A stretch of DNA of 37,779 nucleotides from Acetivibrio sp. MSJd-27. GTDB taxonomy: Bacteria; Bacillota; Clostridia; UMGS1840; HGM11507. The notes under the pieces are model-generated. The model was not told the origin of the DNA. It ran no database searches and was given only the letters and a program-made list of their open reading frames with translations. Location: assembly GCF_018918095.1 (NCBI RefSeq), contig NZ_JAHLPV010000027.1, forward strand, positions 1 to 37,779, written 5' to 3'. Positions 3,821-31,442 of this stretch are shown here, piece by piece (positions within the stretch are counted from its first letter, which is position 1; the number at the start of each line of letters is the position of its first letter). A program made the translations under genes and the position numbers.

Positions 3821-6800
3821 TTATTCCGATGTTTTCTCCAGCAACTTCGCAACCATTGCGCAGATTTCTGCTCTCGCAGCCTGCTGCTTTGGTGCAAAAC
3901 TGCCATCGGGAAGCCCGTTTAAAATTCCCGCTGTCTGCATTTTTTCGACTGCTTCTTTGGCATAATCTGCAATATCATTCTCATCGGAGAATGATATTTT
4001 TTCATTTTCCGCAGGCAATTCCATCCCGCTAATTTGAAGAATCCGCTCTAAAATCACCGCGGCATCCTCCCTGGTGACATCCTGACCGTATCCGAATTCC
4101 TTTGGACTAACACCCTGAATCATTCCGCTTTTCACAGCCGCACAGAGATAGGGATAGCTCCAATCGTCCTTCCTGACATCAGTAAAGGAAAGCTCTCCCA
4201 TTTCCGGATCCATAGAGAAGGCCTCCACAATCACTTTGACAAACTCTTCCCTCTTGATACTGTTATCTGGACGGAAGCTGCCATCCTCATACCCTTTTAT
4301 AATCCCTTTTTCTACCAACCCATAAATCGGTTCATAAGCCCAATGATCTTCATCAAGATCCGTAAAGGAATCCGGCCGTGCTGTCGGTTTCTGAGGCTGT
4401 GTGGGTTCCGGAGTTTCCGTCGGTAACGGTGTAGGTGTCGGCGTTGCTGTCGGTCTGGAACCGCCTCCGCCTCCGCCACTTCCTCCGCTGCTGCCGGATC
4501 CGGATGTGTTCTCTTCCAGTTCAATGGAATGCTGCGCTTCCGCACCTCCCGCTTCCGCAAGGATTACAATGGTTCCTGCCGAGGCGGAACGGGAGATCTT
4601 TAACTGGTTCCCCTCCACGAAAACGCCTGGGTATCCCTCCAGTAAGCTCCATGTAACTGGTGCGTCAATTCGGTTTCCGGCCTGATCTTTCACCTCCGCA
4701 TTCAGCGTCACTTGTTTCGGTGTACCGCCTGTGGGGATTGTAATACTGGAAACCGCGCTGATTGAAATGCTGAGAACCAGCTTTTTCAAGTTTATTTTAT
4801 ATTCTGCCGATGCCTTACGCGCGGTTCCGACTACCGTGATCTCTCCGCTCTCAGCCTCCTTTGTAATTTGCAGGACGTTGCCATTGAGGCTCACACCTTT
4901 ATAGATCTCCTTTAATGCCCAGACAACCTCCGCCTCCACCTTCTGCCCTGTGCTGTCTGTCACTTCAGGGATCAGTATCACCTGCTTCACCGTTTTGTCA
5001 TAGGGAATTGTGGTTTCTTTTTCACCAGTTATGGAAAGCATCAGAACCGGCTCCTGCAAGGATACCGAAAAATCCGCGGAAGCATTCCCGACGGCAGCCG
5101 TTACAATGACTAGCCCCTCTACCGCTTCCTGTGCTACCTCCAACCTGTTTTCTTTAATATTTACCCCTTTGGCAGGCTGCTTCAGCTTCCAGGAAACCTC
5201 TGTCTGTACCGTCTGGCCTGAGGTGTCTTTCACTTCTGCCGTCAAAGGAAGCTGCCTTACGGTTTTGTTATATGGAATTTCAACGGCCGCTTCCGAAGTC
5301 ATCGTAATCAAAAATTCCGGTTTCTGCAAGGTGATTGTATGCTCCGCTATGAAGCCTTCCACCTCTGCCGTCACCGTGATGTCTCCAGCTGCCGCTTTCG
5401 GTGAGACGCTGACGACGCCATCTTTCACGCTGATTTCCTCCACGGAAGTCTTCAAAGACCAGTTCACATCACAGTCTGTAACCGTCTGGGATCCTTCCCG
5501 GACAACCGCCTGCAGCACAATTTCCTGGTTTAAACCGCCTGCCGGAATCACCACGTTTTTTTCCCCGGTGATCGAGATGTTCAGGGCAGTGCTTTGCAGC
5601 ATGATTTTGTGCTCGGCTGATACGCCGCCCGCCGCTGCCACAACCGTGATTTCTCCGTCCTGTGCTTCCCGGCTGACCTGAACGGTTCCATCTGATACGC
5701 TGACGCCCGGATAATTTTCTTTCAGTTTCCATTGCACCGCACTTTCCATCGGGTTTCCGAATCGATCCTTCACAACGGTTGTAAGAACCGCTTGGCTCGG
5801 TGTATTTCCAACCGGTATTTTTATGCTATTCTGTCCTGAAATATTAATTTGAGCGGCAATTTTTTCGTTTATGCGGTAGGAAAGGGCCGCTTTCTTCACC
5901 TCAGCGCCGCTGTAAAAATAAATCTGCTCCTCTTTATCCATCACAAAGCAGGTGCCGCACTCCACATCGGTCAGTCTGCTCTCCCCGGTCAGCGGATCGA
6001 TAATCCGCAGTTTACCTCCATCCGACACATACAGATGACCGTATTTTCCGAACAGAACGCTCTTAGGCCACCAGTACTGCTTGTACGAGCTTGGCTGAGA
6101 TTCGTTTGTCAGTTTAATCTGCTTCACAACCTCCAGCGTATCCTTGTTCATGGCAAACACCATCCCAGTGGTCGCCGCCCACAAAAGTCCGTCTGGTCCA
6201 ATTGCCACATCACCGATCCCACCTACCGGTTTGGAAAAACCACTCAAATTCGGAACTCTGTGAGATAACAGCTTTCCCGTGTTCATATCAAAGCGAAAAA
6301 CCTCCGCATACTGTTTGGTCGGATTCGTATCCAAACCGCAGGCTACCGAGGAGCTCCCATAAACAATCCCATCTTCATAGCAAAGACCGGTTATGCTTTG
6401 CTCTGCAATCAGATTCCGGTATACCTTGCTTTGTTTTGTATTGGGGTCATAGATGGTCAATGCGCCGCCCACCTGATCATAATCAGGGATGGAACCAATA
6501 ATAGCCTTTCCATTTGCCTCCTCCATCACGGTCGGTCTATCCTGATCCTCGCCGATTGATCCCACAATGATCGGGTTCATATTCGGATCATTTTTATTGT
6601 ACTGTTCGTAAATCGGCTTATTTAAGTCCATTTGATAGAGAGTAGCGCCGGTATAATTTCCAAAGATCATCTGATCACCGACCTGGCATATACTGTCCCC
6701 CTGTGCCATATGGTAATATTCTAGCTGTTCTGCCTCCGGTTTCGTGAAATCCCATCTTGCTCCTTTCGTGCCCATGTATTCCGTTGCGTACAGGCGGTTT

Positions 6801-7936
6801 TGGTCGTCAAAGGTAATCCGGCGTATCGCCGCGGGAGAACCATGCAGCATCCCCTCATAGGTGACTGTTTTTCCCTTTTCAAAATTCATCAGATACAGCC
6901 GCCCGTTATACTGCGCGTTTACAAAACAAGTCCCTGCCACATCGGGACGCTTGACCTCCACAAAATCGGTTCCGCGGATATAAGAACCGAAAGTCAATGA
7001 CGTTTTTGTGCTGGTAAAAGTGTTCATATCAAAACGAAACAAGGCATGTCCGTCAGCCGCTTTCGAACTTTTATAGTAAAACACACCGTTATTTATCTTC
7101 GATATATATTGACCATATACATTTTCGACCACCTTGTCCTTCCACTTTCCTGTTAAGGTATCGTAAAAAAACAGGCAACTCATCTCGCTTCCGCCGTTTT
7201 TAGCGGCACCGACAAGCGCAATGATATACTGTCCCCGCAGAAACATTTTTTGCCCGCTGGTTTGCGTATATCCAGCCGGCAGAGCTGGCATCTCGTTTTT
7301 TGTCCCGGTTTCCGGGTTAAAGACGTAAAGCCCTGGTTTGGTCTGAAAACAGTAGTAAAGTTTTCCGCTGTGATAGGCTAGCCCCTGCAGATACTGCTCT
7401 CCCGTTTTCATCCTTCCATAATTGATAAATTGGCCAGCGGTCACGTCATATTTGACAATAGATGCGTTGGGATAAGTCCCCAGCCAGGGATTGTCATCAT
7501 CGTCAAAGGCCAAAGAGATCAAGGCTGTCGTACCAGGAATCTCTCCCAGATTTTTTAGCTGTTTTGTAACCGGATCATACCGATACAGTTTGCAAGGCTT
7601 ATTATAGGATGCAAAATATACATTTCCCTTGCTGTCCGTTTCAATGGTCCAATAGGTTTCGCCTTCATCCAATTCTATGTAGTTTTCTAATTTCCCAGTT
7701 TCCAGATTGACCACATTGAAGGTGGCAGGCGTTCCTGATGTAAGCGTAACCGCAACAGGGATTCCGTCCTGTACCGTGGCGGCACATCTCAAAATATAGT
7801 CTGTCCGCAGTGGAATTCCCATACTCTGCGCCGGCTGCACCTCTACCTGATCCAAAAATGCTGTTTCGTTTCCCGCAAAGACAGGCAACCCTCCCAGCAA
7901 GCAGACAATCAATACAATTGCTAGTACCCTCTTCAT
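3821..7936 (-). CDS. Giant SLH-anchored surface protein: beta-propeller plus five Ig-like repeats
   Basis: A 1371-residue secreted protein. Order: signal peptide (1-22, ending VFAG); a long beta-propeller-like region (about 45-690) with repeated blade signatures such as FDDDDNPWLG, FNPETG, IGPDGLLWAA and YVSDGGKLRIIDP; five tandem Ig-like repeats of about 90 residues (about 690-1140), each with a core like (I/V)PxxxTxxQ..L.A.VKD, W.L, GV.V and I.V.A..G..A.H.I.L; a Gly-rich then Pro/Thr-rich linker (about 1141-1189); and three SLH domains (about 1190-1371). SLH domains bind pyruvylated secondary cell-wall polymer, so the propeller is displayed at the surface on a stalk. The propeller is clearly related to that of the protein at 25809-29066 (shared IGSIPDY, NYTGA/TYTGA and GPDGLLWA). 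No catalytic motif is evident; a glycan- or protein-binding role is inferred. RBS AAAGGA; monocistronic. Confidence 0.85.
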   Translation of the reverse strand: MKRVLAIVLIVCLLGGLPVFAGNETAFLDQVEVQPAQSMGIPLRTDYILRCAATVQDGIPVAVTLTSGTPATFNVVNLETGKLENYIELDEGETYWTIETDSKGNVYFASYNKPCKLYRYDPVTKQLKNLGEIPGTTALISLAFDDDDNPWLGTYPNASIVKYDVTAGQFINYGRMKTGEQYLQGLAYHSGKLYYCFQTKPGLYVFNPETGTKNEMPALPAGYTQTSGQKMFLRGQYIIALVGAAKNGGSEMSCLFFYDTLTGKWKDKVVENVYGQYISKINNGVFYYKSSKAADGHALFRFDMNTFTSTKTSLTFGSYIRGTDFVEVKRPDVAGTCFVNAQYNGRLYLMNFEKGKTVTYEGMLHGSPAAIRRITFDDQNRLYATEYMGTKGARWDFTKPEAEQLEYYHMAQGDSICQVGDQMIFGNYTGATLYQMDLNKPIYEQYNKNDPNMNPIIVGSIGEDQDRPTVMEEANGKAIIGSIPDYDQVGGALTIYDPNTKQSKVYRNLIAEQSITGLCYEDGIVYGSSSVACGLDTNPTKQYAEVFRFDMNTGKLLSHRVPNLSGFSKPVGGIGDVAIGPDGLLWAATTGMVFAMNKDTLEVVKQIKLTNESQPSSYKQYWWPKSVLFGKYGHLYVSDGGKLRIIDPLTGESRLTDVECGTCFVMDKEEQIYFYSGAEVKKAALSYRINEKIAAQINISGQNSIKIPVGNTPSQAVLTTVVKDRFGNPMESAVQWKLKENYPGVSVSDGTVQVSREAQDGEITVVAAAGGVSAEHKIMLQSTALNISITGEKNVVIPAGGLNQEIVLQAVVREGSQTVTDCDVNWSLKTSVEEISVKDGVVSVSPKAAAGDITVTAEVEGFIAEHTITLQKPEFLITMTSEAAVEIPYNKTVRQLPLTAEVKDTSGQTVQTEVSWKLKQPAKGVNIKENRLEVAQEAVEGLVIVTAAVGNASADFSVSLQEPVLMLSITGEKETTIPYDKTVKQVILIPEVTDSTGQKVEAEVVWALKEIYKGVSLNGNVLQITKEAESGEITVVGTARKASAEYKINLKKLVLSISISAVSSITIPTGGTPKQVTLNAEVKDQAGNRIDAPVTWSLLEGYPGVFVEGNQLKISRSASAGTIVILAEAGGAEAQHSIELEENTSGSGSSGGSGGGGGGSRPTATPTPTPLPTETPEPTQPQKPTARPDSFTDLDEDHWAYEPIYGLVEKGIIKGYEDGSFRPDNSIKREEFVKVIVEAFSMDPEMGELSFTDVRKDDWSYPYLCAAVKSGMIQGVSPKEFGYGQDVTREDAAVILERILQISGMELPAENEKISFSDENDIADYAKEAVEKMQTAGILNGLPDGSFAPKQQAARAEICAMVAKLLEKTSE

Positions 7937-17554: not shown

Positions 17555-18427
17555 TTACAACCCCGCTTCCTCGGAATATCTCCGAAGATTCGCAAGCGAA
17601 ATGCGGAGCCCCTCCATCACGGGTTCCATGCCCTCGTATTCAATAGTAATTCCTTCTTGATATCCCGCTTTTTTCAAAATCTGAAGGCATTGTTTTACTG
17701 GAACCTGTCCATGACCTATAATGGTTCCCTTGAGGTAATTGAAGCCCCTGGTCTGAAAATATCCTTCGCCGGGATCAGGCCGGCTGCCGTCACGGATATA
17801 AAAATCCTTGGCATGAACAAAGGCGGCGTAGGGCGCAACCAGGCTTACTGCCTGCACAGGCTCCTCGTCAACACAGAGAAAATTCCCCATATCGCAGAGC
17901 AGACCAAAATTTGTGTGATTCACTGCATGAAACAGCTTCTCCATCCGCAAGCTGTCCTGGCAGATAAACCCATGATTTTCTGCCATGGTTCTGATGCCCT
18001 TCTCGCGAGCATAGTCCGCAACTTCCCGGATGCCATCGGCAATCAACGGCAGTGCCTGATCAAAAGAGACATACGCTCCTAGACTGTACAGAACATCATG
18101 GCGTATTCTCGGAGCCCCGATCAAACCGGCAATGTCCACCATTTTCTTGACCCTCTCGACCTCTTTCCTGCGTTCTCCGGAGTTATCCAGTCCGTTGAGA
18201 AAATCCGCGCGAAATACAAAATTGGTAACCGCCATATTCTCAGCTTCGCATTTCTCTCTCAACCTCCTGGCATACTCCTCCGGTTCCATTTCTTCCGGCG
18301 GAGTCAAGCCGCAGAACTCGATTCCATCAAATCCCAGCTCTTTGGCTCTCTTCACGCAGTCCAGCTGAGAGAGTCCCTCCTGCTTCATGAGGGAAAAAAA
18401 GCTGTAGGTGCTCACTGATATCTTCAT
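17555..18427 (-). CDS. Sugar phosphate isomerase/epimerase (AP_endonuc_2 TIM barrel)
   Basis: A 290-residue TIM-barrel protein of the xylose-isomerase-like family. The start is the ATG at 18427 (MKISVSTYSFF, behind AAAGGAG). Candidate metal and catalytic residues appear in order: E in MAENHGF, D in LLCDMGNFLCVDE, H in AFVHAKDF, and E in GITIEYEGME near the C-terminus. These are the usual divalent-metal positions of the family. Members isomerise or epimerise keto-sugars, inositols or sugar acids, or act as 3-dehydroshikimate dehydratases; the substrate cannot be read from sequence. It lies 60 bp after the Gfo/Idh/MocA gene, a pairing usual in catabolism of inositol-like or oxidised sugars. Confidence 0.88.
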   Translation of the reverse strand: MKISVSTYSFFSLMKQEGLSQLDCVKRAKELGFDGIEFCGLTPPEEMEPEEYARRLREKCEAENMAVTNFVFRADFLNGLDNSGERRKEVERVKKMVDIAGLIGAPRIRHDVLYSLGAYVSFDQALPLIADGIREVADYAREKGIRTMAENHGFICQDSLRMEKLFHAVNHTNFGLLCDMGNFLCVDEEPVQAVSLVAPYAAFVHAKDFYIRDGSRPDPGEGYFQTRGFNYLKGTIIGHGQVPVKQCLQILKKAGYQEGITIEYEGMEPVMEGLRISLANLRRYSEEAGL

Positions 18428-18487
18428 CTGTTTTCTCCTTTCTATTCTTCGGATGCCACAAAAATACTGCCTTTCTTCCGGCAAAAT

Positions 18488-19549
18488 TTATGACAGCACA
18501 ACCTCATGACCAGTCCGCGCTGACTCATAGACCGCCTCCAGAATCCGCATCATATCCACACCGTCCTCCTTGGGAGTCACGCAATCGGCCTCCCCTGCTA
18601 TACAGGATATAAAGTGGTCAATCTCATTCTGAAACATTTCCTTTAATTCAAGAGATGTCTTTGCGTCAAAAGAGACGTTGGACAGGTATCCATTTGTTTC
18701 GGTGAACAACTCCAGTTCCGGATCCAATACCGCTCCTGCCTTTGTCCCGAAGAGTTCCAGTTTGCCCACATTCTTTTTGATATTCAGACTGAAGCTGGTC
18801 TCCACCGAGAGAACCGCTCCGTTGTCAAACCGTATCATAGCCGCCGCCAAATCCTCCACATCGCAGACATCCTCCGGCGTGGAGGACACCGAGACATAAG
18901 CCTTCTTATCCTTCAGCTGTTTCCGGTCTAACAGCTTGCGGAAAGTGATGCCGTATACCGAAACAGGCTTCGGATTCCCCAGAAGATAGCGTGTCAGGTC
19001 AATGACGTGAACGCCCAAATCAATCAGCGGGCCCCCTCCCGATCGCTTCTTATCGCCGAACCACCCGCCGGGGTTTCCGTTTCTCCGCAGATAGCTGGCC
19101 TTTGCATAATAAATCTCGCCGAAATTATCGCTCGCAATCAAATCCTTCAGCATGGCGCAATCCCTGCCGAACCGTCTGACAAAGCCAATCATCAAAGTTT
19201 TTTGATAGGTTTCAGCCGCCTGCCGCATCATGACGGCCTCCTCGACAGACACCGCCATAGGTTTTTCACACAGCACATGCTTTCCCGCCTTTAGCGCCGC
19301 GATGGTGCAAGCGGCATGATTGGAATTCCACACACACACGCTGACGGCGTCCATCTCCTCCAGCTTCAGAAATTCTTCCAGATCCGTGTACAGCCTTTCA
19401 ACGTGGTACTTTTCCCCCTGCTTTTTCAACTGTTCTTCATCAATATCACAAAAGGCATAGAGCTCTGCCCGGTCATTTCCCAGATAGCTGTCGATGTGAC
19501 AGTTGGAGATGCTTCCCACGCCGATGATTCCGATCTTAAATTTTTTCAT
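18488..19549 (-). CDS. Gfo/Idh/MocA family NAD(P)-dependent oxidoreductase
   Basis: A 353-residue dehydrogenase. The start is at 19549 (MKKFKIGIIGVGSIS, behind GGGAGGAG). Rossmann domain 1-120 has GVGSIS nucleotide loop and the HVLCEKPMA motif, where the lysine is the usual catalytic residue. The C-terminal domain has GGGPLIDLGVHVIDLTRYLLG, with the Asp and His expected at the active site. These enzymes oxidise or reduce hydroxyls of sugars, inositols and sugar acids. It follows the S-layer-like gene in the same direction but a strong terminator (19586-19619) lies between, so it is probably expressed by partial read-through and at a lower level. Confidence 0.93.
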   Translation of the reverse strand: MKKFKIGIIGVGSISNCHIDSYLGNDRAELYAFCDIDEEQLKKQGEKYHVERLYTDLEEFLKLEEMDAVSVCVWNSNHAACTIAALKAGKHVLCEKPMAVSVEEAVMMRQAAETYQKTLMIGFVRRFGRDCAMLKDLIASDNFGEIYYAKASYLRRNGNPGGWFGDKKRSGGGPLIDLGVHVIDLTRYLLGNPKPVSVYGITFRKLLDRKQLKDKKAYVSVSSTPEDVCDVEDLAAAMIRFDNGAVLSVETSFSLNIKKNVGKLELFGTKAGAVLDPELELFTETNGYLSNVSFDAKTSLELKEMFQNEIDHFISCIAGEADCVTPKEDGVDMMRILEAVYESARTGHEVVLS

Positions 19550-19585
19550 TTTATAACTCCTCCCGTTTTTGGTTGTTTTATTCAT

Positions 19586-19634: not shown

Positions 19635-22600
19635 CTATTTGATGATCATAATATCGTAATCCACACAGTATGTGTCAAAGGTAAATATCTTAGTATAATT
19701 GACCGCACCGCTTTTATAGTCGATCAAATCGCCCGCGCCTCCGACAGACACCTTCTGCTTTTTGGAGTCATACACATAAATATTCTTGGTAACGCGGTGA
19801 ATCTCCAGCTCCAGCTCTTCTTCCGGATAAAGGGCAGGATCCTTTCTGGCCATCTCAAACAGCTCGTCTTTCATGGAATAAACATACCCCAGGCTGTTGC
19901 GGTGAGTGGTATAGCGTTTCTCCTTCCCCTCGTTGTTCACCAGCACATCTTTCTGTGCATCGTACAGCAGCTTGTAATCCATAATCTTCTGGTTTGCGTC
20001 AAAGGCCAAAAGCATAACATCTCCGGTATGCCTATCTTTGAAAATGTCCATATTCTTGGCGTAGCCCTCTTTTTCTACTCCCTTGTAGAAATAGGTTACC
20101 TTCTGCACCAGATTTCCGCTGCTGTCCACCGCGGTGATAAGCTTATGCAATACGCTGACATACTCATATTTGTTGTAGGAGGCCTCCGCCGCGTCATTGA
20201 TCAGGATGATCTCGGCTCCGATTCCATCCTCTGCGGATTTATAGGCTTTGAAATCGTATTTTTTCGCATTAACCAGAACACTGCTGTCTCCTACCACGAA
20301 GTCCTCGTCGGATGCACTCTGCGCATCCGGGGGAATACAGAATACTTTGCAGGATCCGCCCAAAAAGACATATCCGCCAAAGGATTTGGGATCAATATAG
20401 TATTCCACCTGGCTGCCTTCATAGAATTCAATCAATCGGTTATTCTCCGATTCCTTATCGTTGGTTTCAATGGTATCGACGCTGGAAAGATACCCCTCCC
20501 GATCCAGCCTGTAGCGAATCATCTGGCTTCCTCTCACGGACAGACTTTTCAAAGCATCCAGCGCAGACACGCGAACCCCATCCAGAGTCAGCTTCGCCTT
20601 GCTTTTAACCACCATCATCTTGTTATTTTCGCTTAAAAGTTTCACGTCGATCACGTCCGAGAAGGTGTCCTCCGGTTTTCCTGCCAGAAAATAGCCATAA
20701 GTATCCGAAGTGTCAATTCCCTCTCGATAACCCTCCACATTGCCCAAAATATCAAGATAGAAGGTTCCGGCGCTTCCGGTTTCCACATAAGAATAATTGT
20801 TCAAAAAGTTTTGGCACAGCCGGTATTCTTTTTGATTATCCAGAAGGATACTGCTATTCTTATCTGCCAGTGAAATCGACTCGATTTTTCCGGAAACTTT
20901 TTCCGACGAGTAAAAAACGCCTGCTATTTTCCCGTTTTCATCGTACATGACGCTCAGGATATTCCCCTGCGCAATTTGCGTTGGAGATACACTGCGCCCG
21001 TTTCGATCCAAAATTCCAACCTCATCGTCCAGCTTCAGCGCGGGATGATTCTCCACAAGAATAGCTTCCGTCTCCGTCTCGTACCGGATTGCCTGATAGT
21101 TTTCAAACTGGTAAATTTTCATCACGTCCGGTCTGGAATCGCCGCTGTTATCAATAAGCTGGATATAGCCGTAATCAATATTGTATAAATCGGGATTGTA
21201 GTTTTCGACTGCTTTGTCGTTGTATATCAGATAAACATCCTTGGAGATGCTTTGGCTTCTGTCCTTTCCGTCAACAGTATAGAACAGGGTTCCGTTCTGA
21301 TAACGCACATCCTGATCATAATAGATGACCTCGGTTTTATTTTTGGCATCTATCTCATAATAGAAAAGATTGTCATCCTCGTCGCAGTATGCCGTGATCC
21401 TCTGTCCCAGGAAGCCGTCCATATTCTCGCCTTTCAGCGTCCGGCTTTCCACCTGGAAATATCCGCTGCCCACACCGTCGGAACTGTCCAGAGAAGTATG
21501 GGAAACCGCGTTGACAACCCCTTCGTATATATAAATGTGATGATAAATTTCCAGAAGTGTCTTATCATTGTTGGTTATCTGATAACCGTTTTCGCCGATG
21601 GAATAAATCATCATCGGAGGTGTCTTTAAAAAGTTTACACTGATCTTAAAGATATCTTTTCTGGGAATAGAGCCGGACACAATCGCATCCTTTGCACCCT
21701 TTAACAGCCCCAGTTCGCTGGCCGCCTGATAGTATCCGTAGGGATAACCGCCGTAAGCTTTCGCTCTGTCCGAATATCCCAGCGCGTTAATAAAGGTAGT
21801 GCAGACTTCGAACAGGGTTATCTCATCGTCCGGGCAGAAAAGAGCATCCCCTCCCCTGGAGATCACACCCAGATAGTAAAGGGTGTTAATCTCCCTGGCA
21901 TAGGGGTGTTCCGCCGGCACATCCCAGTAGGTTTGCTTATAGTCCGCAACAGGTGCGTTCATACATTTCAGAAGCATACCGGCGAACTCGCCTCTGGTCA
22001 TGGGAGCAGTCTGCGCTTCCTTGCCGTCATAGAAGCCAAAAGCTTTTAAAAAGTTTTCTTCCTGTGCAGTAGTGTTCTCCGTCTCCTGTCCCTGATTCCC
22101 GCCGCTGGGCTCCGGCGAAAGGGAGGAATCTGCCGGATTCATGCCGTCGGTATATGAAAAAATTTTGATATAGTCCACATCCACATAGCTTGTAGCGTTC
22201 ATCCCCGCGCTGAGATTAAACTTGAAATCCCCGCCGGACGCATAGTTGTTTCCCTCAAAGGTCCCCTTCTCTTCCCCGTTGATGTAGATGGTGCGTTCCT
22301 GTTTCGCATTGTCGTATACGATGGAAAAATCATACCAGGTTTCCCGGTCAGCAATGCCGAAAGGAAGCATCTTTGTGCCGTTGGGTTTATCATAAATACC
22401 GTTGTTCTCCCCTCTCTGAAAATAGCACAGGAAATCCCCGTTGGATTTGCTCCAGGACAGGGTAGAACTGGCGCTGTCCAGAAAAGCTTTCACCCGGAAT
22501 TGAAGCACCATTTTCGGTTTGCCCGGAACCTGCGGGATCCATTTGCTGATTTGGGTTCCAGCCTTGTCATTGGGGAGTAGCCGCAGAAAATCGACTCCAT

Positions 22601-22811
22601 TCTCCTCTATTTTCTGTATAGTAGAACCATCCGCAGGAAACACATGATCCAAACCGAATTTTTCATCTGTTTTTTCCCCGTTGAAATCCTGATAGTAAAA
22701 CCATTGTATATTCTCCGCCCCCAGAGCCGGCGTTCTTAACGCCGGACAAAGCGAGAGCAAAATACTTGCCGCCAGACAGAAACAGCTTATCTTTTTCCAC
22801 AATTTCTTCAT
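19635..22811 (-). CDS. LamG-like domain fused to an S-layer protein (SLH plus full S-layer body)
   Basis: A 1058-residue secreted protein. Order: signal peptide (1-32, ending ALGA); a LamG/concanavalin-like domain (about 36-225) containing VPGKPKMVLQF, VYDNAKQERTIYINGEEKG and VDYIKIFSYTDG; a short linker; SLH domains (about 252-410; PMTRGEFAGMLL, YWDVPAEHPYAREIN, INALGYSDRAKAYGGYPYG); and a long beta-rich body (about 410-1058). SLH region and body match the probable main S-layer protein at 34952: GGYPYGYY versus GGYPNGFL, GTFYLDILGNV versus GTFYLDALGRI, YGYFLAGK versus YAYLVAGN, and an end with VYDS, AGDL and IIK versus SYDS, AGDI and IVK. It is thus an S-layer subunit variant carrying an added lectin-like domain. 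Third gene of the operon, 11 bp after the previous one; probably assembles into or replaces S-layer units. Confidence 0.85.
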   Translation of the reverse strand: MKKLWKKISCFCLAASILLSLCPALRTPALGAENIQWFYYQDFNGEKTDEKFGLDHVFPADGSTIQKIEENGVDFLRLLPNDKAGTQISKWIPQVPGKPKMVLQFRVKAFLDSASSTLSWSKSNGDFLCYFQRGENNGIYDKPNGTKMLPFGIADRETWYDFSIVYDNAKQERTIYINGEEKGTFEGNNYASGGDFKFNLSAGMNATSYVDVDYIKIFSYTDGMNPADSSLSPEPSGGNQGQETENTTAQEENFLKAFGFYDGKEAQTAPMTRGEFAGMLLKCMNAPVADYKQTYWDVPAEHPYAREINTLYYLGVISRGGDALFCPDDEITLFEVCTTFINALGYSDRAKAYGGYPYGYYQAASELGLLKGAKDAIVSGSIPRKDIFKISVNFLKTPPMMIYSIGENGYQITNNDKTLLEIYHHIYIYEGVVNAVSHTSLDSSDGVGSGYFQVESRTLKGENMDGFLGQRITAYCDEDDNLFYYEIDAKNKTEVIYYDQDVRYQNGTLFYTVDGKDRSQSISKDVYLIYNDKAVENYNPDLYNIDYGYIQLIDNSGDSRPDVMKIYQFENYQAIRYETETEAILVENHPALKLDDEVGILDRNGRSVSPTQIAQGNILSVMYDENGKIAGVFYSSEKVSGKIESISLADKNSSILLDNQKEYRLCQNFLNNYSYVETGSAGTFYLDILGNVEGYREGIDTSDTYGYFLAGKPEDTFSDVIDVKLLSENNKMMVVKSKAKLTLDGVRVSALDALKSLSVRGSQMIRYRLDREGYLSSVDTIETNDKESENNRLIEFYEGSQVEYYIDPKSFGGYVFLGGSCKVFCIPPDAQSASDEDFVVGDSSVLVNAKKYDFKAYKSAEDGIGAEIILINDAAEASYNKYEYVSVLHKLITAVDSSGNLVQKVTYFYKGVEKEGYAKNMDIFKDRHTGDVMLLAFDANQKIMDYKLLYDAQKDVLVNNEGKEKRYTTHRNSLGYVYSMKDELFEMARKDPALYPEEELELEIHRVTKNIYVYDSKKQKVSVGGAGDLIDYKSGAVNYTKIFTFDTYCVDYDIMIIK

Positions 22812-29082: not shown

Positions 29083-30333
29083 TTAATAAAGACAGTGATA
29101 GTTATCCATCAGGCGGTGTAACCGATTTATGTCTATTTCTCCCACTTTGAGCTGCTCCTGCAAAGCCAGACTGACCGCCATACCAGCCGCCTCACCGAGA
29201 TTGCTGCAGATCGGGATAATCCGGTAAGCGGATTGGGCCTCATGAGTAGAAGAGATGCATCTGCCTGTCACCAGAAAATTGGAATATAAGCGGTTCACCA
29301 TCGCCCGGTAGGGAATGGTATAAAAGTCATGATCGTCTATATGGTATTGAACCGTTCCGCTTCCGTCCGGGTTATGAATATCAATTCCGTAAGCCCCTCT
29401 GGAAACCGAATCCTCAAATTTCCTGCACTGCATAATATCCTCCGCCGTGATTTCGTACATTCCTTCAATCATACGGCTTTCCCGCACGCCAATCTGCGGT
29501 GCGGACATGATAAGATTGCTGTTTTGAAAACCGTCCGCATGTTTTTTTAAAAAGCTGTACAGCTCAAAAACCTGCTTCCGCGCTTCCTGTTCTGCCGCGC
29601 TCAGTTCTCTGGCGTTTAAGGGATTTTTCCGAACAATCCGGGTGGAGTTAAAGTGTACGACGCCCTTTTCGATATGTTCGAAGGTAAGAATGTTTTCCCT
29701 TGGATTTGTTATTTTTCCTTCTCTTTGGTATTGCTGATACAGCGCAAGGATTTTTTCACGATTTTTATGGAATGTCTCAACGTCCACGTTAGAAAGACGA
29801 AAGCACATAGTCATCGGTTGGCAGCACTCATCCTCTTTCCGCCCAACATGGTAAGGGCATCCAGCCAGATATGCCAAATCTCCGTCTCCTGTCGCGTCAA
29901 TAAAATAGTCTGCCCGATAGGTCTCGACTCCCGATTTGTTGGCAACGCGAATCTCGGTGATACGCTCATTTTCCGTACCGACACCGACAAGATAGCTGTG
30001 AAACAGCACATCAATGTGATATTCTTCCGTCAGCTCATCCAGAACAATTTTCAGGATCTCCTCATTAAAGGTGACTTTATTTTCAAGAAGGCCTCCTTTT
30101 TCCTCCAGCCGGTCTAAAATCTGCAGAAACAGGCCTCCGTTTACCGCTGTGTTCTGCCCGCTCTCATTCTTTGACCAATACCGCATAAACGGATTGACTA
30201 GGCAATTGACCGCAGAACCTCCCAGAAACCCGCTGCATTCTATCACTAAAACCTTTCTTTTTTCTCTTGCCGCAGCGATGGCCGCATTGACACCGGATAT
30301 GCCTCCGCCGGCCACAATCAAATCATAGTTCAT
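29083..30333 (-). CDS. FAD-dependent oxidoreductase (PF12831 type), first gene of the surface operon
   Basis: A 416-residue cytoplasmic flavoprotein without signal peptide. N-terminal dinucleotide-binding loop GGGISGVNAAIAAAREKRKVLVIE, then GGSAVNCLV, a second FAD contact YFIDATGDGDLAYLAG, and a C-terminal FAD segment NFLVTGRCISSTHEAQSAYRIIPICSNLGEAAGMAV. This is the FAD_oxidored family often found in polysaccharide-use loci and sometimes mislabelled xanthan lyase. The substrate is unknown; oxidation of a sugar or polyol hydroxyl would fit the Gfo/Idh/MocA and isomerase genes downstream. Start ATG at 30333 behind AAAGGAGG. A divergent PocR-AraC regulator lies 230 bp away and probably controls it. 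Confidence 0.88.
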   Translation of the reverse strand: MNYDLIVAGGGISGVNAAIAAAREKRKVLVIECSGFLGGSAVNCLVNPFMRYWSKNESGQNTAVNGGLFLQILDRLEEKGGLLENKVTFNEEILKIVLDELTEEYHIDVLFHSYLVGVGTENERITEIRVANKSGVETYRADYFIDATGDGDLAYLAGCPYHVGRKEDECCQPMTMCFRLSNVDVETFHKNREKILALYQQYQREGKITNPRENILTFEHIEKGVVHFNSTRIVRKNPLNARELSAAEQEARKQVFELYSFLKKHADGFQNSNLIMSAPQIGVRESRMIEGMYEITAEDIMQCRKFEDSVSRGAYGIDIHNPDGSGTVQYHIDDHDFYTIPYRAMVNRLYSNFLVTGRCISSTHEAQSAYRIIPICSNLGEAAGMAVSLALQEQLKVGEIDINRLHRLMDNYHCLY

Positions 30334-30563: not shown

Positions 30564-31442
30564 ATGGAGAAGAAGGAAAGCCAGCTGCAGGCCTTAATCA
30601 ATGTGCTGACGGCAAACTCGAAGCTTCACATCTGCGTCTATGACATGTCCAATATTCTAAATAATGATGTGATGAGCTTAAAACGGCAAAATACCATGCA
30701 CTTGTCCGAGATCTGCAATCTGATGAAGCGTACAAAAAGGGGACTTGGGCGCTGCATGCGCTGCCGTTCCTATGTAAATCACAAAGTCTATTCCAAGAAA
30801 AAAATGCTGGTCGGTCAATGCATCAACGGGCTGACAGAAATTGTACAGCCGGTCATTTATAATGGAAGAGTGATGTGTATTATTTATATCGGTAATTTTT
30901 ATACCGACAAAGCTGTGACAGCGCATGAACTCTTGCAATCCGCAAAAAAGTGCGGCTGTCCGGAGATGGAGGCAGTCTACGCTCTGTCCGGACTTCAGCC
31001 CTGTCCGGATTTGAATCTCTATATTCAAATGGGCAGAATCATCAAAGAGTATATCATTATGCTTTTCGAAAAATACCATGTTTCTCTCACAGTGGATTCC
31101 CATTGGATTGTGGAGGATTTAAAAAACCATATTGCCTCCTACTATAACCACAGTCTAGTCCTGTCCGATCTGACCTCGGCATACCGCTTTAATGACAAAT
31201 ATATCGGCCGTATTTTCAAAAAGCATACCGGCCTCTCCTTTGCGGAATACCTGAACCAGGTGCGGATTCAAAAAGCTTGTATTCTGCTGAAGACCACAGA
31301 CAAGAAGATGATAGAGATCGCCCTGTCGGTAGGCTATGAAAATATTAGTTATTTTAACCGAACCTTCAAGAAGGTTACCGGTATGACCCCTTTGGAATAC
31401 CGCAATGAGCCCGATGCGCAGATTCCCGGCAATTTATTCTGA
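30564..31442 (+). CDS. AraC-family regulator with N-terminal PocR sensory domain
   Basis: A 292-residue cytoplasmic regulator. Residues about 8-170 form a PocR ligand-binding domain with its cysteine motif (RCMRC, then GQCINGLTEIVQPV). Residues about 188-285 form an AraC DNA-binding domain with two helix-turn-helix units (LSDLTSAYRFNDKYIGRIFKKHTG, and MIEIALSVGYENISYFNRTFKKVTGMTPLEYR). PocR domains sense small molecules such as polyols or other hydrocarbon derivatives; the clustered cysteines could also bind metal. Its position, divergent from the FAD oxidoreductase operon with shared motifs in the spacer, suggests it activates that operon when its ligand is present. RBS CAGGAG. Confidence 0.9.
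   Translation: MEKKESQLQALINVLTANSKLHICVYDMSNILNNDVMSLKRQNTMHLSEICNLMKRTKRGLGRCMRCRSYVNHKVYSKKKMLVGQCINGLTEIVQPVIYNGRVMCIIYIGNFYTDKAVTAHELLQSAKKCGCPEMEAVYALSGLQPCPDLNLYIQMGRIIKEYIIMLFEKYHVSLTVDSHWIVEDLKNHIASYYNHSLVLSDLTSAYRFNDKYIGRIFKKHTGLSFAEYLNQVRIQKACILLKTTDKKMIEIALSVGYENISYFNRTFKKVTGMTPLEYRNEPDAQIPGNLF

Follow-up and report, generated by a model that had tools for sequence, protein, structure and literature searches.

What an S-layer-type protein with an additional N-terminal domain does inside an operon adjoined by a regulator is the question raised by the locus described here. S-layers are usually pictured as uniform coats built from one or two abundant proteins. The window analysed, i.e., the whole stretch of 37,779 nucleotides of contig NZ_JAHLPV010000027.1 from Acetivibrio sp. 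MSJd-27, encodes two proteins that combine SLH repeats with a long body, one in an operon (P0001) and one standing alone (P0002). A first-pass annotation of this DNA regarded P0001 as "a second S-layer protein" that swaps in as a lattice subunit under the control of an AraC-type regulator and carries a LamG-like head. The features on which our analysis is based are listed in Table 1.

Table 1. Features of the window, in order of position (SLH x3, three SLH repeats).
Feature	Position	Strand	Length (aa)	Description	Basis or remark
Propeller protein	3821-7936	minus	1371	Propeller, Ig-like, triple-SLH protein	Propeller motifs in common with P0004 (RP.VME...IGSIPDY...GGA.T.Y)
Xylose-isomerase-like TIM barrel	17555..18484	minus		Last operon gene	AP_endonuc_2
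Gfo/Idh/MocA oxidoreductase	18488..19585	minus		Operon gene directly after P0001	
P0001	19635..22811	minus	1058	Head-SLH-body protein: signal peptide ~1-32; lectin-like head ~33-222; linker; SLH x3 ~250-400; body ~402-1058	ORF
P0003	22823..25789	minus	988	P0001-like head, further middle region, C-terminal SLH x3; operon gene 3	
P0004	25809..29066	minus	1085	Head, beta-propeller, Cu_amine_oxidN1 domain; operon gene 2	
FAD-dependent oxidoreductase	29083..30333	minus		First operon gene	Pfam (PF12831)
AraC-type regulator	30564..31442	plus		Divergent from operon	PocR sensory domain and AraC HTH
P0002	34952..37561	plus	869	Stand-alone SLH-body paralog, divergent from rny	Very high codon adaptation; conserved ortholog clade

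The extra domain of about 190 residues that had been placed between the signal peptide and the SLH repeats of P0001 is present as the head, which a low-complexity linker joins to the repeats. These repeats, downstream of the signal peptide, match the Pfam SLH model (3.8e-06) and are predicted to fold as the SpaA SLH trimer (VIA Z 19.2). In the AlphaFold model (mean pLDDT 80.4, with the head weak), the body is predicted to comprise about 650 all-beta residues in tandem OB-like small barrels.

Comparison of P0001 with P0002 supports the resemblance claimed in the first-pass annotation, which was said to run from the SLH repeats to the last residues. Residues 271-1058 of P0001 align by BLASTP with residues 66-869 of P0002 at 25% identity (E=1e-39), from the SLH repeats to the last residue, and the GTFYLD.LG, Y.Y..AG-type and C-terminal I(V/I)K matches cited at the time are real in this alignment. 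When 22 paralogs are aligned, 22% of the 616 post-SLH residue pairs between P0001 and P0002 are identical, and the secondary structure of the two AlphaFold models (mean pLDDT of 89.5 for P0002) agrees at 84% of these pairs; shifted controls, in which one model was slid by 8-60 residues, gave a mean agreement of 43% and a maximum of 49%. Since the alignment reaches the last residue and the predicted body folds agree, neither of the two outcomes that the annotation had named as counting against its proposal, similarity limited to the SLH domains and different body folds, was found. The body of P0001 is homologous to that of the probable S-layer protein of its own genome. Both models contain a SpaA-type SLH trimer (Z 19-20), followed by bodies modelled as a string of OB-like small barrels; local OB-fold matches at Z 6-8 mean only "small barrels". 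No solved structure with a long-range match to either body was found by Foldseek and VIA structure searches, and neither body is covered by a Pfam or NCBIfam model. DDB1, DPP9 and the ER membrane complex, which gave long Foldseek matches with TM ~0.1, were discarded as relatives of the body.

Calling P0001 a second S-layer protein, by contrast, proved wrong in scale, as P0001 is one of 24 full-length paralogs in the genome, 3 of them stand-alone and 21 operonic. The best 22 of these 24 copies align across approximately residues 241 to 1040 of P0001, and near-invariant positions occur along the whole body in the family alignment. Family loci in other genomes were collected with a DNA pattern of the LGY...GGYP.GY motif, and copies were counted from called ORFs and from profile matches in draft genomes. 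Among the matches listed, four genomes of the same class (G001, G003, G018 and G036) hold roughly 15 to 40 copies each, and related Clostridia hold about 2-40 copies per genome. With a body-only profile, the family was detected in 44 of the 148 genomes sampled from the class (about 15 families); approximately 100 genomes sampled at phylum level added only one weak occurrence. Among the named carriers are Ructibacterium gallinarum DSM 107454 (locus L120), Monoglobus sp. and Candidatus Ornithomonoglobus, along with numerous Clostridia bins from herbivore guts. P0001 used alone as query retrieved no relative among GTDB r220 genomes, the alignments being too diverged for that search. Short proteins of about 360-590 aa, some in tandem, also occur (L165, L111, L077, L102, L139 and L180); their match to the family profile is confined to its SLH part. 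At another locus (L192-L193, G003:C46), two adjoining SLH-body genes are each followed by an SLH protein of ~2,300 aa, the two having identical N-termini; this arrangement suggests that an entire operon unit was recently duplicated in tandem.

As judged from strand and spacing, P0001 occupies the fourth position in a probable operon of six genes that runs from 30333 to 17555, the genes being 3 to 49 nt apart, and the operon placement and the AraC-type regulator of the first-pass annotation are both borne out; the regulator adjoins the operon, from which it is separated by an intergenic region of 230 nt. Gfo/Idh/MocA, FAD-dependent and TIM-barrel enzymes are associated with intracellular oxidative handling of sugars or glycosides, and the three such proteins encoded here, which have no obvious export signal, suggest oxidative sugar or glycoside handling inside the cell. 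The operon has the regulator that forms part of a Gram-positive polysaccharide utilisation locus (regulator, transporter and hydrolase or lyase), but contains no Pfam-recognisable glycoside hydrolase, lyase or transporter and hence does not qualify as one. A sister operon (L009) has a GH20-type gene.

Across the genome, the operonic copies keep company with secreted, carbohydrate-related proteins, many of them anchored by SLH repeats. A triple SLH is carried by the immediate operon neighbour in 16 of the 21 cases; in the rest, this neighbour is of the heparinase II/III-like, F5/8-type, propeller or kelch-like kind. Further neighbours of operonic copies include AraC-type sensors, solute-binding proteins, a GH20-type enzyme and an SLH-bearing PL8 lyase. 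Of 58 other SLH proteins, 22 are encoded no more than 5 kb from an operonic copy, where 8.9% would be expected (p ~1e-9); counting P0003 gives 23 of 59. An SLH protein of ~560 aa is a frequent partner of the body gene, adjacent to it at 50 of 64 loci, a figure that is biased because the loci were fetched around body genes. The tree of this partner is only partly congruent with the body tree, and body clades tend to follow operon type. In one further protein (L074, 6719-11035 of its locus; 1438 aa), the ~560-aa triple-SLH partner is fused with an SLH-body protein, giving two SLH sets. Three family members that have an unassigned N-terminal module in common (L062, 8395-12027; L162, 2345-5944; L098, 1172-4650) are encoded directly after an nrdG-like (anaerobic ribonucleotide reductase activase-like, radical SAM) gene, which is not a glycan context.

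The stand-alone and operonic copies separate by codon adaptation, which serves here as a proxy for expression. The stand-alone copies, which lie beside the housekeeping genes rny (P0002), the recR/dnaX region (L026) and pyrG (L028), have the three highest values in the family (0.835, 0.789 and 0.874, respectively) and fall in the top 2% of genes, the 99th percentile of background genes being 0.790. P0001, at 0.710 (62nd percentile), is ordinary, and no operonic copy exceeds 0.741; by this proxy, very high expression is a property of P0002, L026 and L028 and not of P0001. P0002 belongs to an ortholog clade that spans several families, with 42-52% identity between P0002 and its relatives L083, L178 and L117; orthologs in other genomes likewise stand alone. 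One copy in the small genome G002 adjoins rny and another the ybaB region, as for L026, and G003 also keeps a copy beside the ybaB region. From these observations, the stand-alone form is probably ancestral and constitutive, and P0002 is a probable constitutive S-layer protein.

The head distinguishes P0001 from most of its relatives, as N-terminal extensions of more than 110 residues were present in 14 of the 120 family members examined. Describing this head as LamG-like holds in part: Laminin_G_3 matches 7 of 10 related heads at relaxed E-values of up to 0.1, but P0001 itself scores 19.0 bits, below the Pfam gathering cut-off of 27.6. VIA rows over the P0001 head list PL7 lyases, legume lectin and galectin at Z ~6, on a model with pLDDT mostly 40-75, and a LamG/ConA-like fold is hence a weak but consistent prediction. 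Tim15, retrieved from the PDB with the head profile, was rejected as a chance match (E 0.5). The P0001 head shows 53-54% identity to the P0004 head, a match that extends over most of the signal peptide, and 30% identity to the P0003 head; that its nearest match lies in the same operon points to duplication inside the operon. Apart from two weak matches, this head family occurs at only three loci in the genome, and the body copies encoded there group in a single clade with a protein from another genus that also bears a lectin-like head (L060) and whose operon is of the same kind in content. Discoidin heads of the F5/8 type occur in four members (L014, L171, L185 and L097), and a GDSL/SGNH hydrolase domain (E 8e-22) takes the head position of another SLH-body protein (L059, 8845-12564 of its locus). 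The L014 head is 74% identical, including the signal peptide, to the head of one gene of the same operon and 40% identical to that of a second, but at most 29% identical (long alignments) to heads of other operons. P0001 and L014 thus represent, in two operons and with two head types, a common pattern in which an S-layer-type protein and an operon partner carry closely matching heads. The match between the P0001 head and the domains of its neighbours suggests that the cell surface is tailored, one cluster at a time, to the glycan that the bacterium is consuming.

We propose, with a probability of about 0.6, that P0001 is an operon-specific, wall-anchored S-layer-type subunit, made together with the SLH-anchored proteins of one glycan system, with a head that binds that glycan. 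Such an inducible subunit accounts better than a switch of the major coat for the conservation of the whole body, the single copy in each operon, the SLH-rich surroundings, the ordinary codon use and the heads matched within operons. The AraC/PocR regulator would sense an inducer and turn on production of the operon, and the SLH trimer of P0001 would bind the secondary cell wall polymer among the constitutive subunits, with which, or with the other SLH proteins of the operon, the shared body would allow packing. The head, matched to those of the co-produced proteins, would then hold the same glycan at the surface, where the propeller protein and its partners could act on it, and the FAD, Gfo/Idh/MocA and TIM-barrel enzymes would process the released sugar in the cytoplasm. 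That P0001 mixes into the lattice is inferred from the shared body; given a cysteine content of 1.0% in the body of P0001 versus 0% in that of P0002, together with 22-25% identity, packing with constitutive subunits may have been lost. Also counting against the proposal are the operon's lack of a Pfam-recognisable glycoside hydrolase or transporter, the weak assignment of the P0001 head and the family members encoded next to nrdG-like rather than glycan genes.

An alternative that we regard as rather doubtful is that P0001 is a wall-anchored surface glycan-binding protein which acts alone, as in Bacteroidota loci, and uses the S-layer body as a stalk that never enters the lattice. Ordinary codon use, the strong divergence of the P0001 body, the resemblance of the heads to binding modules and the predicted string of OB-like barrels would all suit a stalk of this kind; a plain stalk, however, would not need a whole body conserved with near-invariant positions throughout, nor does it account for one copy, mostly headless, being kept in nearly every such operon. 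Wholesale lattice replacement, in which P0001 displaces the major S-layer protein when induced, is unlikely, and we give it only a slight probability, even though P0001 and P0002 share architecture and predicted fold, an AraC-type regulator adjoins the operon and switches between S-layer proteins are on record in other bacteria (Sap/EA1 of Bacillus anthracis, PMC9802277). A replacement coat is hard to reconcile with codon adaptation so far below that of the constitutive copies and with a gene in fourth position among six rather than a strong single gene; the swap proposed by the first-pass annotation also has to face 20 other operonic copies, mostly beside SLH-anchored proteins. Scarcely probable at all is the view that the bacterium switches between the paralogs as alternative coats to evade immunity or phages; the set is indeed large and diverged, with copy number varying from about 2 to 40 between genomes, but each copy sits in its own operon, matching its neighbours and often with a dedicated regulator, the clades of the body tend to track the type of operon, and a check of the promoter region of the P0001 operon found no convincing invertible repeats.

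A broader and more tentative possibility is that the S-layer is a mosaic, to which each glycan operon contributes its own lattice-compatible subunit, some with a binding or enzyme head shared within the operon, such that the coat follows diet. Here an S-layer-type body is repeated two dozen times in a single genome and about 2 to 40 times in its relatives, mostly once per degradation-type operon and with interchangeable heads. Should the inducible copies become part of the lattice or rest on top of it, the S-layer of herbivore-gut bacteria would be a programmable glycan-capture display platform, and a large protein family that lacks Pfam and NCBIfam models would have a directly testable function.

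Among known systems, the SLH-type S-layer proteins Paenibacillus alvei SpaA and Bacillus anthracis Sap/EA1 have the same N-terminal SLH trimer with the same fold (VIA Z 19-20, TM ~0.7-0.83). In P0001 the repeat motifs read TRGE, TLFE and PRKD, comparable to TRAE/TVEE/TRAQ in SpaA (PMC6081394); in both proteins the first and third repeats keep the arginine and the second lacks it. Together with three PF04230 pyruvyltransferase-type genes in the genome, candidates for a wall-polymer pyruvyltransferase of the CsaB type, this trimer is consistent with anchoring to the wall polymer. What sets the present family apart is its body, which is related to no solved S-layer body found here, as well as the tens of paralogs that share the whole body, the binding or enzyme heads at the N-terminus and the operon context. 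A literature search limited largely to non-subscription papers returned no description of a one-copy-per-operon arrangement. The gene of the Lactobacillus brevis S-layer protein Lb1325 is among those highly transcribed on arabinoxylan plus xylanase, with reported binding of the protein to cellulose or xylan; it differs in encoding a single protein, and no one-copy-per-operon expansion is described in the accessible part of that report (PMC9026416). SLH anchors also place carbohydrate-active modules on the cell surface in enzymes such as Ruminiclostridium Cel5I (PMC4976890) and Caldicellulosiruptor Xyn10B (PMC6556019). With these enzymes, unlike here, only the SLH module is in common, and the proteins of the present family keep the whole S-layer-type body and add a head.

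A parallel in organisation may be drawn with the loci of Bacteroidota. In these, SusC/SusD and surface glycan-binding proteins occur as one dedicated paralog per glycan locus, co-transcribed with enzymes. One dedicated paralog per locus is likewise the arrangement of the present family, but what is dedicated here is a wall-anchored, S-layer-derived protein in a Clostridia lineage; no Pfam match to a TonB-dependent barrel or SusD was obtained among the proteins of the P0001 operon. The mosaic reading, if true, would represent an S-layer-based counterpart of the SusC/D principle.
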